Origin: a virus
Strand: one strand, 5' to 3'
Virus record (IMG/VR): IMGVR_UViG_3300020469_000110
Location: 1 to 37,384 of that record
DNA: 37,384 nt
The notes beneath the pieces were generated by a model. The model was not told the origin of the DNA. It was given only the letters and a program-made list of their open reading frames with translations, and did not search any database. The position numbers and the translations under genes were made by a program. This document shows, piece after piece, positions 17,618 through 22,519 of this stretch (position 1 is its first letter; each line of letters begins with the position of its first letter).

Positions 17618-18061
17618 ATGACCTATAAAACTTATTCTGGAAGATTCAAACCAAGATATCCTGGCAAGTACAAAGGGGATCCTACAAATATTATTTATAG
17701 AAGTTTGTGGGAGAGAAAGTTTATGGGGTGGTGTGACCTAAATGAAAACGTTATAGAGTGGGGCAGTGAAGAGATTATCATTCCTTATAGAAGTCCTATC
17801 GATGGTAGGTTTCATCGTTACTTTCCTGATTTTTATGTCAAGTCTCGCACCAAAAGTGGAGGACTCGCCAAAAGAATTATCGAAATTAAACCATTTGCAC
17901 AGACTCAGGCACCAGCAACTCAAAAACGAAAAACTCAACGTTTTTTAAAAGAAGTTGCTACATATGGTATAAATCAAGCAAAATGGAAAGCAGCAACAGA
18001 GTATTGCAAGGATCGTAGAATGCAGTTTGTCATATTAACAGAGCACGAATTAAGAGTATGA
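17618..18061 (+). CDS. 4: Head completion protein gp4 (nuclease-like)
   Basis: This 147-residue protein matches T4 gp4 (also called gp50), which finishes filled heads before tail joining. YSGRFKPRYPGKYKGDPTNI, then YRSLWERKFMGW, HRYFPDFYV and RIIEIKPFAQT are family blocks. W31-E32, D71, and E89-I-K91 give a PD-(D/E)XK-type nuclease arrangement, suggesting DNA-end trimming. The C-terminus (YGINQAKWKAATEYCKDR) also fits. The gene diverges from gp48 with one base between the starts, so its promoter must lie inside gp48. No Shine-Dalgarno is seen. Confidence 0.92.
   Translation: MTYKTYSGRFKPRYPGKYKGDPTNIIYRSLWERKFMGWCDLNENVIEWGSEEIIIPYRSPIDGRFHRYFPDFYVKSRTKSGGLAKRIIEIKPFAQTQAPATQKRKTQRFLKEVATYGINQAKWKAATEYCKDRRMQFVILTEHELRV
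17692..17699 (-). promoter_or_regulatory. Minus-strand TATAAATA inside gp4 gene
   Basis: It reads TATAAATA on the minus strand, 75 nt before the gp48 start. It is the only late-type motif I see for the gp48-gp53 operon. Confidence 0.45.
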
Positions 18062-18534
18062 GTGTTTTCACAGACATACAAACTAAATCACTAGGGAAAT
18101 CACAATCATCAAATTGGTGGAGAACACAACTCTTTCAATCATTGTTTGATATGGGTTTAGGTTCTGATGGTGTAACGCCTGGTACAGCATTGACTTTTAA
18201 ATATGATCCAGAGGATGATAATAAAGAACTTATGAAATTTTGGGATAAATATCCTATGGTTTACATATATGGTGAAGATGATGAATACTTCTGGGGTGCC
18301 AATGTTCATTATATGAGACCAGAACTTCGTAAATATGGATTTACTCCAGCAGCACCACCTAAAACTATACATAAATACTTAAGACGTAATGTGCGAAGTA
18401 GTATGTTAGTCGTCCCAGATTCGGAATGGGATGATATTGGTCAGATACCATCCGAACAATTTCACATCACAACATTTGGTCGAGACACACCAGTTCCAAC
18501 AAGTGTTTTACTTAAAAAAGGAGAGCTAGTTTGA
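18058..18534 (+). CDS. Conserved-type T4-like phage protein, unknown
   Basis: This 158-residue protein has ATGA overlap with gp4. Blocks such as KFWDKYPMVYIYGEDDEYFW, GANVHYMRPELRKYG and VRSSMLVVPDSEWDDIGQIP look like a compact mixed domain shared by marine T4-like phages, which I cannot name. It ends with AAGGAGAG, which serves as ribosome binding site for the next gene. By position between gp4 and the gp54-like gene, a head-tail or baseplate assembly role is likely but unproven. Confidence 0.7.
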   Translation: MSVFTDIQTKSLGKSQSSNWWRTQLFQSLFDMGLGSDGVTPGTALTFKYDPEDDNKELMKFWDKYPMVYIYGEDDEYFWGANVHYMRPELRKYGFTPAAPPKTIHKYLRRNVRSSMLVVPDSEWDDIGQIPSEQFHITTFGRDTPVPTSVLLKKGELV

Positions 18535-19244
18535 GAGTTCCTAATTCGTTTACCCAGTTTCAAGATGTAGTCAATACAGGTGCGTATGAACCGACCCTTG
18601 GCAATCTTTATGGTGCTTGGATAGGATTTCCTCTAGTTTTTGCAGCAATGCCAGGATGGACTCAAGCACAATCACAAGAAATATACAAAGCGGTTAACTA
18701 TTTTGCAGATAATGTTACTATACCTTCTCGTGGAGTCACCACAGGAGATATCAAGAATTTTGGTGTTCAGCGTACATATGCAACTGGACAGATTCCTAAC
18801 GAACTTACTATCTCATTCATAACAACTAAAAATCAATGGCATAGAAACTTTTTTGAGAAGTGGATGCAAGCAATGGCACCTGACTCAGAGAATAGAGTTG
18901 GTTTTTATGATGACTATGTTGCAGATGTGTTTATAGAAAAATGGGAAAGAGGATCTAATGTCGTAGCTCAGAAAGTCGTTAATGCTAAAAAGTATGAAAC
19001 AAGAATGAATAGATCAATAGGTATTTTCCATTTCGTTGGAGCATATCCGACGAATTTAGGTCAATTAACGTTTAGCAATGAGCAAAACGGTTTAGTTAAG
19101 ATGGATGTAGTCTTTAAATTTGAAAGATATAGGTTCTCTACTAAGATAAAAAAACCTAATGAATGGACAAATGATACTGTCTTAACTGAAGATGTTTTGG
19201 ATAATTTTGAAGATATCAAATTATCATCTCACTTTGGTGTCTAA
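18531..19244 (+). CDS. 54: Baseplate-tail tube initiator gp54-like
   Basis: This 237-residue protein has a tube-like fold pattern. NVTIPSRGVTTGDIK, then GQIPNELTISFITTKNQWHR, NFFEKWMQAMAP and MDVVFKFERYRF parallel T4 gp54 and tail tube subunits (MPENRL, then ISFRMDSEA, then FDVTFAYR). The TTG start at 18531 overlaps the previous stop (TTGA) and has a strong ribosome binding site AAGGAGAG at 18518-18525. gp54 joins gp48 to start tube polymerisation. The gene could alternatively encode a different tube-like baseplate protein. The stop TAA lies in CTAAATA. Confidence 0.65.
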   Translation: MRVPNSFTQFQDVVNTGAYEPTLGNLYGAWIGFPLVFAAMPGWTQAQSQEIYKAVNYFADNVTIPSRGVTTGDIKNFGVQRTYATGQIPNELTISFITTKNQWHRNFFEKWMQAMAPDSENRVGFYDDYVADVFIEKWERGSNVVAQKVVNAKKYETRMNRSIGIFHFVGAYPTNLGQLTFSNEQNGLVKMDVVFKFERYRFSTKIKKPNEWTNDTVLTEDVLDNFEDIKLSSHFGV

Positions 19245-19275: not shown

Positions 19276-19980
19276 ATGCCTTTACCAAAACTGAGCATTC
19301 CAGATTATGAATGCAATCTGCCAAGAGGTCAGAAAGTCACCTATCGACCATTTTTAGTTAGAGAAGAGAAATTGCTTTATATGGCAATGGAAACTCAAAA
19401 TAACAAAGAGATGATCAAGGCAGTTAAAGAGATTATCAAGAATTGTACAAATGTCAAGAATCTAAATGAACTTGCTACATTTGATATTGAATATCTATTC
19501 TTAAAAATTCGTGGTAAATCTGTAGGTGAAGTTAGTGAATTTAAACTAACTTGCCCTGATGATGAAAAAACACAAGTTGAAGTAGAAGTCAACTTAGATG
19601 AAGTTAAAGTTGAAATCCCAAAAGATCATAATAATGTTATTAAATTAACTGATGAGATTACCTTGACAATGAAATATCCATCTCTGGATAGTTTCGTGAA
19701 AAACAATCTATCAGATAATCCTGGTCTTGAAGATGTGTTCAAACTAGCAGCAGATTGTACTGACACTATTGCTGATGGTGATGAACTTCACGAAGCAAAG
19801 TCTTATAAAAAGGCAGAGTTAGTAGAGTTCTTTGAAAGTATGAACTCACAACAATTTACAGCAGTTCAAAAGTTCTTTGAAACTATGCCTAAATTGACTC
19901 ACGCTATTGAGGTCTTCAATCCAAAAACTGAAGTAACCAGTACCGTTACATTAGAGGGATTAGCAGCTTTTTTCGAGTAG
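19276..19980 (+). CDS. 26: Baseplate hub assembly protein gp26
   Basis: This 234-residue protein matches the T4 baseplate (gp26) family. MPLPKLSIPDYECNLPRGQK, then VTYRPFLVREEKLLYMAME, ATFDIEYLFLKIRGKSVGE and FKLTCPDDEK are characteristic. gp26 is a chaperone-type protein for hub and tape-measure assembly. The end reads GCT TTT TTC GAG TAG; T TTT TTC (19968-19974) is a canonical -1 slippery heptamer one codon before the stop. The -1 frame is open into the next ORF. This matches the widespread tail-assembly-chaperone frameshift of dsDNA phages. Confidence 0.88.
   Translation: MPLPKLSIPDYECNLPRGQKVTYRPFLVREEKLLYMAMETQNNKEMIKAVKEIIKNCTNVKNLNELATFDIEYLFLKIRGKSVGEVSEFKLTCPDDEKTQVEVEVNLDEVKVEIPKDHNNVIKLTDEITLTMKYPSLDSFVKNNLSDNPGLEDVFKLAADCTDTIADGDELHEAKSYKKAELVEFFESMNSQQFTAVQKFFETMPKLTHAIEVFNPKTEVTSTVTLEGLAAFFE
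19968..19974 (+). promoter_or_regulatory. Candidate -1 ribosomal frameshift site T TTT TTC
   Basis: The heptamer is in the X XXY YYZ register in the gp26 frame (GCT TTT TTC GAG TAG). After a -1 slip, reading continues CGA GTA GCC CTA TCT CAC GAT TCG into ATG 19998, giving a predicted 303-residue fusion. Confidence 0.65.
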
Positions 19981-19997
19981 CCCTATCTCACGATTCG

Positions 19998-20186
19998 ATG
20001 ATGAATATCTATGAGACTAACTTTGCTTTGATGCAACATCATAAGTACAGTCTCACAGAACTTGAGAATATGATTCCGTGGGAAAGAGATGTTTATGTGA
20101 ATTTGTTAATACGTTATCTTCGTGAAGAAGAAAGACGACAGAAACAACAAGACTTTCAAAATACACCTCCTGGACAACAACTCTGA
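19998..20186 (+). CDS. 51: Tail/hub assembly chaperone partner (gp51-like)
   Basis: This 62-residue ORF starts MMNIYETNFALMQHHKYSLT, then ELENMIPWERDVYVNLLIRY and an acidic/Arg tail. The block HKYSLTELENMIPWERDVY is like the T-type extension of phage tail assembly chaperones and the small gp51-like proteins of cyanophages. It lies 17 nt after gp26 in the -1 frame and just before the tape-measure genes. It may be made mostly as a gp26 fusion by frameshifting; an independent start at either ATG is also possible, though no ribosome binding site is visible. The gp51 name is by position and tentative. Confidence 0.7.
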   Translation: MMNIYETNFALMQHHKYSLTELENMIPWERDVYVNLLIRYLREEERRQKQQDFQNTPPGQQL

Positions 20187-22519
20187 TGGAAGGGGCAAGA
20201 CCGCTAAACATAAGAAAATTTATACCAGCTAAAGTAGGAAGTGCTACTAATCCTGTGCAAGGGTTGTCTTTTGCCATTAACAGGATGGGTTTTGTTGTGT
20301 CTGATATAGGAGATATTTTTGCTGATTTACATAATCAGAGGTTAGCATTTTGGAAAGAACAGAATAATGCTGCGAATTTACAGGCAGATAAAGCTACTGA
20401 AAATAGTTTAGAAGCAGATACACAGGATGCAGTAGAAAAAGAATCACAGAGAAGTGGAGTTGCTAAAAATGCAACTAAGTGGTTGAGTAAACTATTAGGA
20501 CCTTTTAAATGGATTGCTATGAAGGTGGGAACTTGGTTCCTACTAGATTTACTATCAAATCCTAAATTTAAAGGTATTCTTGACTTTAGTTTACCTATCA
20601 TAGGTAAATGGTTGGGTAGTGTTTATAAGATATTAAATACAGGTGTTAACTGGATATTAGAAGCATTTGGTGAAAAGAGTTTAGCAATGGGTGCACTTAA
20701 GATCATTGGAGGTCTTGGGGCATTTTTTGTTGCATCTAGAGTATTGCAACCTTGGAAATTAATAGGTGATTATCAGAGTTTAACTAAGTTCTATAAAAAC
20801 AGTGTAGGTAAAACTAAGTGGGCTAAAAAATTAAAGAGAGCTCAAAATATTAAAAAACTTAGAGCTCAGAAAGCTGCACGAGTCCAGAGATTCGGCAAGA
20901 TGAGAAACCAGATAAGAGCAAGAAATACACGTATGTTAAGACTTAAACGTCTTTCTAAAGTGAAAGCGGGTAGGTTTATGCAAGGTAAAGCAACTGCTGG
21001 ATTGAGTAAAGGATTACCATTTCTAGCGGGTGCCACTGCTACAATTACAAGATTGCAATCAGGAGACTCAGCTCAGAAAGCGATTGGTGGTGGTGTTGGT
21101 GCTGCTGTAGGTGGTGCAGCGTTGACTGCATTATTAACACCAATACTAGGTCCTTTCGGTCCTATTGTTGGTAATTTGTTAGGTGGATTTATAGGAGATA
21201 AGATTGGTGCATTTGTTGGTGATGCCATAACACCTATAATCAAACCTATAAAGAAATTCATAGGTGAGATTATGATTCCTTTATACAAGGCATATCTTGG
21301 ACCTTTAATTGATTCTGTTAGAGATATGTTAGATGCACTTGTTCCAGCATTGAAAACTGTATGGAATGTGTTAAAACCAGTAGCAGACGCAGCAGTTAAG
21401 AAAGTAAATGAGTTTTTAAATTCACCAGCTCTTAAGGCAACATTTGAGAAACTAATGTATATTATTAACCTAGGTCAGACTGTTATAGGAGGCACAGTTA
21501 ATGTCTTCCAAAGAACATTTGGAGATAAAGAAACTAAAGCAACTGCACAGTTAACTAATGAAAACGATGATGTAAAACGTTTACGTAAACAAGTTTCTGA
21601 TCTCAAGAAACAGAAAGATGATAAAGGTGGTAAAAAGAGAAGTATATGGACAGGAGTTGATGGTGTGGTAAGAACCAGTAATGGTGCACCAGGTATGAAT
21701 ATAATGAATGGTCACAGACATCCATTTGGTTCTACTATTGATGAGAAGATAGACCACTGGACAAATGTTCTCATTCCTTATGCTGAATCTAAAGCAAAAG
21801 ATGCAGAAGCATTAGTTAACAGTCTTGAAGATGGTGGAGGACCTCTAGAGAAGAACATAACTGTTTCCAATTCAAGGATTTTCCCATTACCTACAGGAAG
21901 ATGGGCAGCACAACCAGGTCAACGTTATGGTGCACCACGTAGTTATGGTGCACATACAGGTATTGACTTAACAGAGAAACCTCCATTTGGAGCAGATCCT
22001 GCTATTGATGTTGTTGCTCTAACTGGTGGTCAGGTATTGAAAGAAAAATATGATAACACTTTAAATTATATGGCAGGGTTAATGATAAGAAGTGCTGATG
22101 GATTTGATCACAGATATTTGCATATGTTACCATCAGTTGCAGTTGGTGATCATATCAAAGCAGGACAGAAGATAGGATCACTGGTTGATATGAGTAAAAT
22201 TGGTAGAGATATCAATGATACCCATTTACATTTTGATGTTTATAAGATGGGTACCAATGAGCACCTAGATCCTACTAAGGTATATCCTGGTCTATTTGGC
22301 ACACCTAATAAACCAATTGAGACATTACCACCCGATAAACTAAATAATACCAGTGCTGAAATGAAAAATAGATCCGAAGCACTCGCTGGTAACGAATTGA
22401 CAAGTGGTATTCAAACAATAGTTGTTATGCAACCTGTGGTTAAGTCTAAGAAAGAAGTACACGTTAAGCGTGAAAATACACCAATTCTTTATAAGTCGTC
22501 TTCAGTAGGTCTTACATAA
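20186..22519 (+). CDS. Tape-measure-like hub protein with M23 peptidase domain
   Basis: This 777-residue protein has an N-terminal helical part, long hydrophobic and basic helices (about 80-260), a Gly/Ala-rich transmembrane-like core (GGGVGAAVGGAALTALL, about 295-350) and coiled coil near 465. A C-terminal M23 (LytM) metallopeptidase follows, with zinc ligands H590 and D594 (GAHTGIDL) and H682 (HLHF, H680 and H682), plus H642 and H646 (DHRYLH). The M23 domain would cut peptidoglycan cross-links for DNA entry. Its start shares one base with the chaperone stop. By place it corresponds to T4 gp29. It is paralogous in layout to the next gene. Confidence 0.85.
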   Translation: MEGARPLNIRKFIPAKVGSATNPVQGLSFAINRMGFVVSDIGDIFADLHNQRLAFWKEQNNAANLQADKATENSLEADTQDAVEKESQRSGVAKNATKWLSKLLGPFKWIAMKVGTWFLLDLLSNPKFKGILDFSLPIIGKWLGSVYKILNTGVNWILEAFGEKSLAMGALKIIGGLGAFFVASRVLQPWKLIGDYQSLTKFYKNSVGKTKWAKKLKRAQNIKKLRAQKAARVQRFGKMRNQIRARNTRMLRLKRLSKVKAGRFMQGKATAGLSKGLPFLAGATATITRLQSGDSAQKAIGGGVGAAVGGAALTALLTPILGPFGPIVGNLLGGFIGDKIGAFVGDAITPIIKPIKKFIGEIMIPLYKAYLGPLIDSVRDMLDALVPALKTVWNVLKPVADAAVKKVNEFLNSPALKATFEKLMYIINLGQTVIGGTVNVFQRTFGDKETKATAQLTNENDDVKRLRKQVSDLKKQKDDKGGKKRSIWTGVDGVVRTSNGAPGMNIMNGHRHPFGSTIDEKIDHWTNVLIPYAESKAKDAEALVNSLEDGGGPLEKNITVSNSRIFPLPTGRWAAQPGQRYGAPRSYGAHTGIDLTEKPPFGADPAIDVVALTGGQVLKEKYDNTLNYMAGLMIRSADGFDHRYLHMLPSVAVGDHIKAGQKIGSLVDMSKIGRDINDTHLHFDVYKMGTNEHLDPTKVYPGLFGTPNKPIETLPPDKLNNTSAEMKNRSEALAGNELTSGIQTIVVMQPVVKSKKEVHVKRENTPILYKSSSVGLT

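Follow-up and report, generated by a model that had tools for sequence, protein, structure and literature searches.

A cyanophage gp26 gene that very probably encodes two tail assembly chaperones through a programmed −1 ribosomal frameshift

Introduction

Is the short gp51-like reading frame that follows gp26 in a T4-like cyanophage a gene of its own, or is it the second half of a protein that begins in gp26? The question arises from a stretch of viral DNA of 37,384 nucleotides (IMG/VR record IMGVR_UViG_3300020469_000110; hereafter the window), for which an earlier note had proposed a −1 frameshift that joins the two frames. G-T frameshifting is regarded as widely conserved in long-tailed phages "except T4" (PMC5009743), and T4 gp26 and gp51 are described as hub assembly chaperones (PMC3004832). 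According to papers citing their work, Vladimirov, Gautam and Davidson (2022) called these two T4 proteins tail assembly chaperones (TACs; cited in PMC10885494 and PMC12846349), and noted that in some T4-like phages a short gene is paired instead with a long, fused one (cited in PMC10885494). The literature searched, in which Vladimirov et al (2022) is represented by these citing papers, yielded no direct account of gp26/gp51 frameshifting in cyanophages. The earlier remark that the phenomenon is not usually described for T4-type gp26/gp51 holds for T4 itself, which has no frameshift, but it needs qualification, as PMC12846349 credits Vladimirov et al (2022) with poly-T slippery signals in T4-like TAC-N genes.

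Results

The gp26 gene and its overlapping frame

The following features of the window define the locus.

19276..19980, + strand: gp26 ORF in the zero frame, short tail assembly chaperone (TAC-N) of 234 aa; PF12322, phrog_150; AlphaFold model resembling the TACs HK97 gp13 and YqbN
19968..19974, + strand: slippery heptamer T_TTT_TTC in X_XXY_YYZ register; conserved in relatives
19974..20186, + strand: −1 frame extension of 70 codons plus TGA, gp51-like C-terminal part of the predicted long form; open frame; phrog_634
19978..19980, + strand: zero-frame stop TAG, end of the short form; position kept 0–1 codon past the heptamer
19998..20000, + strand: ATG earlier assumed to open the gp51-like ORF but probably coding for a Met inside the extension; no Shine-Dalgarno sequence

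In profile searches, the gp26 body matched PF12322 (T4_baseplate, E 7e-69) and phrog_150 (E 8e-76), and the extension matched phrog_634, baseplate hub assembly catalyst (E 2e-25). The 3′ end of the gp26 ORF reads GGA TTA GCA GCT TTT TTC GAG TAG, which places the heptamer in the right register with a single codon (GAG) ahead of the stop, as the earlier note had it. The −1 frame is indeed open straight into ATG 19998, and it stays open until TGA 20184–20186; the codons after the slip would be CGA GTA GCC CTA TCT CAC GAT TCG ATG ATG, the ninth of which is ATG 19998. We obtained the same lengths for the predicted frameshift product as had been proposed, namely 233 + 70 = 303 aa. Tryptic peptides predicted from the window sequence are TEVTSTVTLEGLAAFFR across the junction of the long form and TEVTSTVTLEGLAAFFE at the C-terminus of the short form.

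Conservation of the slip site and its phase

Conservation of the heptamer in other T4-like cyanophages had been named as a check on the proposal. In all 271 scored loci with a frameshift-type gp26, TTTTTTN has one and the same codon phase and is followed by the stop after 0–1 codon; the figure describes this type of gp26, because the loci were collected by similarity to frameshift-type gp26 proteins, and it leaves out T2 (T4 type, separate genes) and the IMG/VR locus L177 (in-frame fusion of both pieces). T2 was reached by the same locus search, and it and other T4-type gp26 genes carry no slip site. Among 126 distinct relatives drawn from the 271 loci at <90% amino acid identity, the spacing from heptamer to stop is one codon in 123 and zero in three, and the heptamer is TTTTTTC in 117, TTTTTTT in seven, and TTTTTTG in two. 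The 79 IMG/VR relatives that reach the stop (71–97% identity) have an identical site, including G-N-N-TAG after the heptamer. Carriers of the site belong to Kyanoviridae, Pootjesviridae (Atu_ph04, RHph_N34), Menderavirus, and some Straboviridae, and further include Ochrobactrum phage OC, Xanthomonas X1, Schizotequatrovirus VH7D, Vibrio D480, Angelvirus AsFcp_2, and Citrobacter Ci1.

The excluded locus L177 (2200–2395; on a 236-kb IMG/VR contig) is the one exception among 272 loci outside the T4-type phages. Its gp26 and gp51-like parts form a single frame, in which the slip site has become TCT TTT TGG and the length is about 2 nt shorter; this locus represents either a natural fusion or an assembly error.

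The heptamer could in principle just follow from a GLxxFF protein motif conserved at the gp26 C-terminus, and G228, F232, and F233 are in fact invariant in 36 aligned gp26 proteins. The choice of codons led us to reject this explanation, to which we assign a negligible probability. Two consecutive phenylalanines are written TTT TTC in 117 of 126 cases at the slip site versus 5 of 129 elsewhere in the same genes, and in-register NNTTTTTTN occurs elsewhere in gp26 bodies only seven times in 28,906 codon positions; such codon and heptamer counts take no account of relatedness, but they differ widely and come from a diverse set. The codon that holds the first T of the heptamer varies between Ser, Asn, Ala, Asp, and Thr, yet its wobble base is fixed as T: in the gap-free alignment of 95 relatives this base shows zero diversity, compared with 0.49 and 0.67 at positions 1 and 2 of the same codon. 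T2, with its separate genes, writes EFF as GAG TTC TTT and has no heptamer. On these sequence comparisons, the conservation of the slip site is not due to chance, and selection acts on its bases rather than on the protein. Heptamers of this class occur in register eight more times in plus-strand open stretches of the window, none of them within 15 codons of a stop; therefore, the heptamer alone is weak evidence, and it is position and conservation that make the case.

The same run of six T, present in every relative of the frameshift type, might instead shift the frame through slippage of RNA polymerase. For transcriptional slippage in bacteria, six T make a short run, and a polymerase would be indifferent to codon phase, yet the X_XXY_YYZ phase is found in all 271 loci; it is chiefly this fixed phase that speaks against the explanation, which we consider extremely unlikely. 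The seventh base is mostly kept as C, and elements of the ribosomal type (Shine-Dalgarno-like sequences and hairpins, see below) accompany the site.

Coding in the −1 frame

The extension is 56–70 codons long and open in all 122 distinct relatives in which it is complete, and 95 relatives could be aligned without gaps from the slip point. Diversity at the three codon positions of the −1 frame is 0.28/0.18/0.49 in these 95 sequences, so that the third position is the most variable, and for the first eight extension codons it is 0.47/0.26/0.56. Within the first nine extension codons, R, L/M, H, and L are conserved, with RxxLxH near the slip point. Codon-position diversity and residue conservation thus argue that the −1 frame is coding from the slip point onward.

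These data bear on the simplest alternative, in which the gp51-like ORF would be a normal gene of its own, translated from ATG 19998 through reinitiation or coupling once gp26 has terminated, with no need for a frameshift. The ATG lies 17 nt past the gp26 stop, and short ORFs of this kind are annotated as gp51 in several GenBank records. An ATG is absent from the first 13 extension codons in 65 of the 126 distinct relatives, and none of the 126 has one with a ribosome site 5–12 nt upstream, for which reason an independent start was rejected; in the window, the nearby Shine-Dalgarno-like GAGGG is 39 nt from ATG 19998, too distant to serve it as a ribosome site. Against a separate gene are also the conserved amino acids, which start at the slip point, and the T4 counterpart, which has a whole gp26-like body (see below), and the piece is left unannotated in several records. 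We therefore regard a separate gene as very unlikely. The earlier description of a gp51-like ORF joined to gp26 needs correction: the piece is probably no gene in its own right and instead supplies the C-terminus of the long form.

In five GenBank records (L082, L088, L092, L097, and L278), the gp51-like part is unannotated, either for want of its own start codon or by oversight.

Candidate stimulatory elements

A Shine-Dalgarno-like element precedes the heptamer.

19954..19958, + strand: GAGGG, Shine-Dalgarno-like candidate stimulator, 9 nt ahead of the heptamer; GAG/GGG codon choice enriched in 126 relatives

Many relatives carry a Shine-Dalgarno-like element (GAG GGN) about 9 nt upstream of the heptamer, and the strict GAGGG motif is missing in many. 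At the element, Glu is encoded by GAG in 57 of 76 cases versus 30% elsewhere, and Gly by GGG in 36 of 125 versus 6% elsewhere. Pairing with the anti-Shine-Dalgarno sequence in the 126 relatives beats that of synonymous shuffles with a z of about −11, where relatives are non-independent samples and z-scores and probability products overstate significance.

Downstream of the heptamer, the RNA is stable in a sample of 45 relatives (mean z −2.4 over 50 nt). RNAalifold gave no consensus hairpin over all relatives, and the stability of the sample is due to at least two unlike hairpins, found in two cyanophage groups. The hairpin GUAUGGCUC/GAGUCAUAC shows clear compensatory changes (31 cells versus 12 in shuffles, with 0 of 500 as high) and the hairpin CACUCUUCCA/UGGAAGGGUA weaker covariation, in groups that were picked by pairing, a choice that favours covariation. 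The clade of the window has neither of the two; we found no strong hairpin there in the 50 nt past the heptamer (mean z +0.5), and the structure signal over 90 nt is weak (z −1.25). Window positions 19968–20030 and the loci L001–L080 thus keep the slip site without the strong hairpin of other cyanophages.

The −1 frameshift of Escherichia coli dnaX uses an A AAA AAG heptamer with a Shine-Dalgarno-like element about 10 nt upstream and a hairpin. The phage loci resemble it in the upstream element and, in some relatives, the downstream hairpin; they differ in the heptamer, and dnaX is a cellular gene whose long form is the unshifted one. No precedent was found in the literature searched for the Shine-Dalgarno-like element, for either hairpin, or for a survey of this breadth, which is not proof of novelty.

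Fold and gene neighbourhood

The AlphaFold model of gp26, computed from an alignment of the window and IMG/VR rows, has a mean pLDDT of 87.6. Its best matches among solved structures are the YqbN-like 3fgx (Z 7.7), the HK97 TAC 2ob9 (Z 7.2), and YqbN 3klu (Z 6.8), followed by the PICI-like ORF19 5ir0 (Z 5.7) and an unrelated toxin-immunity complex (4.7). Only 2ob9 bears the TAC name; 3fgx and YqbN we take to be TAC homologues. The fold match is moderate (Z 7–8) and covers residues 1–93 only, and these scores suggest that the N-terminal part of gp26 has a TAC-like fold. By sequence, gp26 matched no solved structure, and an NCBIfam search gave no match above the cut-off.

The gp26/gp51-like locus sits between genes for a tail tube and a tape-measure-like protein.

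18531..19244, + strand: tail tube protein, upstream; phrog_45 tail tube, E 4e-34
20186..22519, + strand: tape-measure-like protein with M23 peptidase domain, downstream; phrog_167 tail length tape measure, E 2e-11; PF01551, E 4e-11

The M23 peptidase domain occupies residues 590–690 of the tape-measure-like protein. Farther upstream, window positions 17618–18061 encode a protein with a TnsA-like endonuclease fold, whose gene is annotated in relatives as T4-like gp4 head completion protein.

Proposed mechanism and comparison with known systems

Site, phase, coding, stimulators, chaperone-like fold, and gene position together support the −1 frameshift of the lambda G/GT type upstream of the tape measure that the earlier note had suggested, and this is by far the best explanation of the locus. 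We are thus highly confident that a programmed −1 ribosomal frameshift yields two TACs from one gene. Most ribosomes would end at TAG 19978 and release the 234-aa gp26 as the short, G-like form. A minority would slip on T_TTT_TTC, possibly aided by the GAGGG 9 nt upstream, and translate 70 more codons to give the 303-aa, GT-like long form, equivalent to T4 gp51. Judging from lambda, coating of the tape measure protein would fall to the body common to both forms, and the additional C-terminal part of the long form would bring in subunits of the tail tube or the baseplate hub.

The window site belongs to the known lambda G/GT kind: as in the gpG/gpGT frameshift (PMC5009743), the gene lies just 5′ of the tape measure, the −1 slip falls near the 3′ end, and the two products share an N-terminal part with a TAC-like fold. 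In contrast to lambda, the family in the window is PF12322 (T4 gp26), it shows no sequence match to a solved TAC structure, and the gene is longer. A second similar case is the TAC locus of Vandenendeviridae and Andersonviridae (phage Adele, PMC12846349), in which TAC-N likewise carries a poly-T slip signal close to its 3′ end and is followed by a frame misannotated as a separate gene; there, the motif is GTTTTT and the phage families are different.

Cyanophage "gp51" ORFs, often annotated with arbitrary starts or not at all, most likely encode the latter half of a frameshifted chaperone, which gives a rule for annotating hundreds of marine phage genomes.

Relation to T4 gp26 and gp51

The T4 counterparts are linked to the same pattern. 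Over its full length, T2 gp51 (249 aa) matches the profile of the gp26 family (phrog_150, E 7e-88), with PF12322 spanning residues 1–201, and its final segment hits the extension family phrog_634; therefore, gp51 consists of a gp26-like body plus an extension and is the counterpart of the 303-aa long form, just as in the window the body matches the gp26 family (PF12322) and the extension the gp51 family (phrog_634). The T4 hub assembly chaperones (PMC3004832) are thus homologous to the two forms, gp26 to the short one and gp51, over its entire length, to the long one, which links them to the G/GT pair; T4-type phages differ in that each form has its own gene and the heptamer is absent. Such gene pairs, in divergent orientation and with no heptamer, are found in T2, Acinetobacter Navy1, Krischvirus G5211, Aeromonas 31, Serratia 92A1, and Morganella MP1. 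Matches to gp26 occur at 855 places in 855 phage records, one per record, with a query that would miss a very diverged gp51; the 37-kb window record, a genome fragment, contains one.

In an unrooted tree, the frameshift and separate-gene sequences fall on opposite sides of one branch (98/96), so a single switch suffices. Its direction is probably from frameshift to two genes, because frameshifting occurs in other Straboviridae and in distant families. We favour, with some reserve, a scenario in which the frameshift is the general state across the T4 superfamily and one lineage that includes T4 moved to separate gp26 and gp51 genes, while the cyanophage clades keep the slip site and the Shine-Dalgarno-like element but differ in the stimulator that follows (either of two dissimilar hairpins, or nothing of the kind in the clade of the window). 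The frameshift would then be near universal among the distant relatives of T4 and lost in T4 itself, and this natural switch between frameshifting and separate genes would make the need for a short:long ratio testable.

In Klebsiella phage phi1_146015 (L276:1501–2794), gp51 and gp26 lie in tandem on one strand with a 14-nt overlap, in contrast to the divergent T2-type arrangement; this tandem pair is perhaps an intermediate of duplication.
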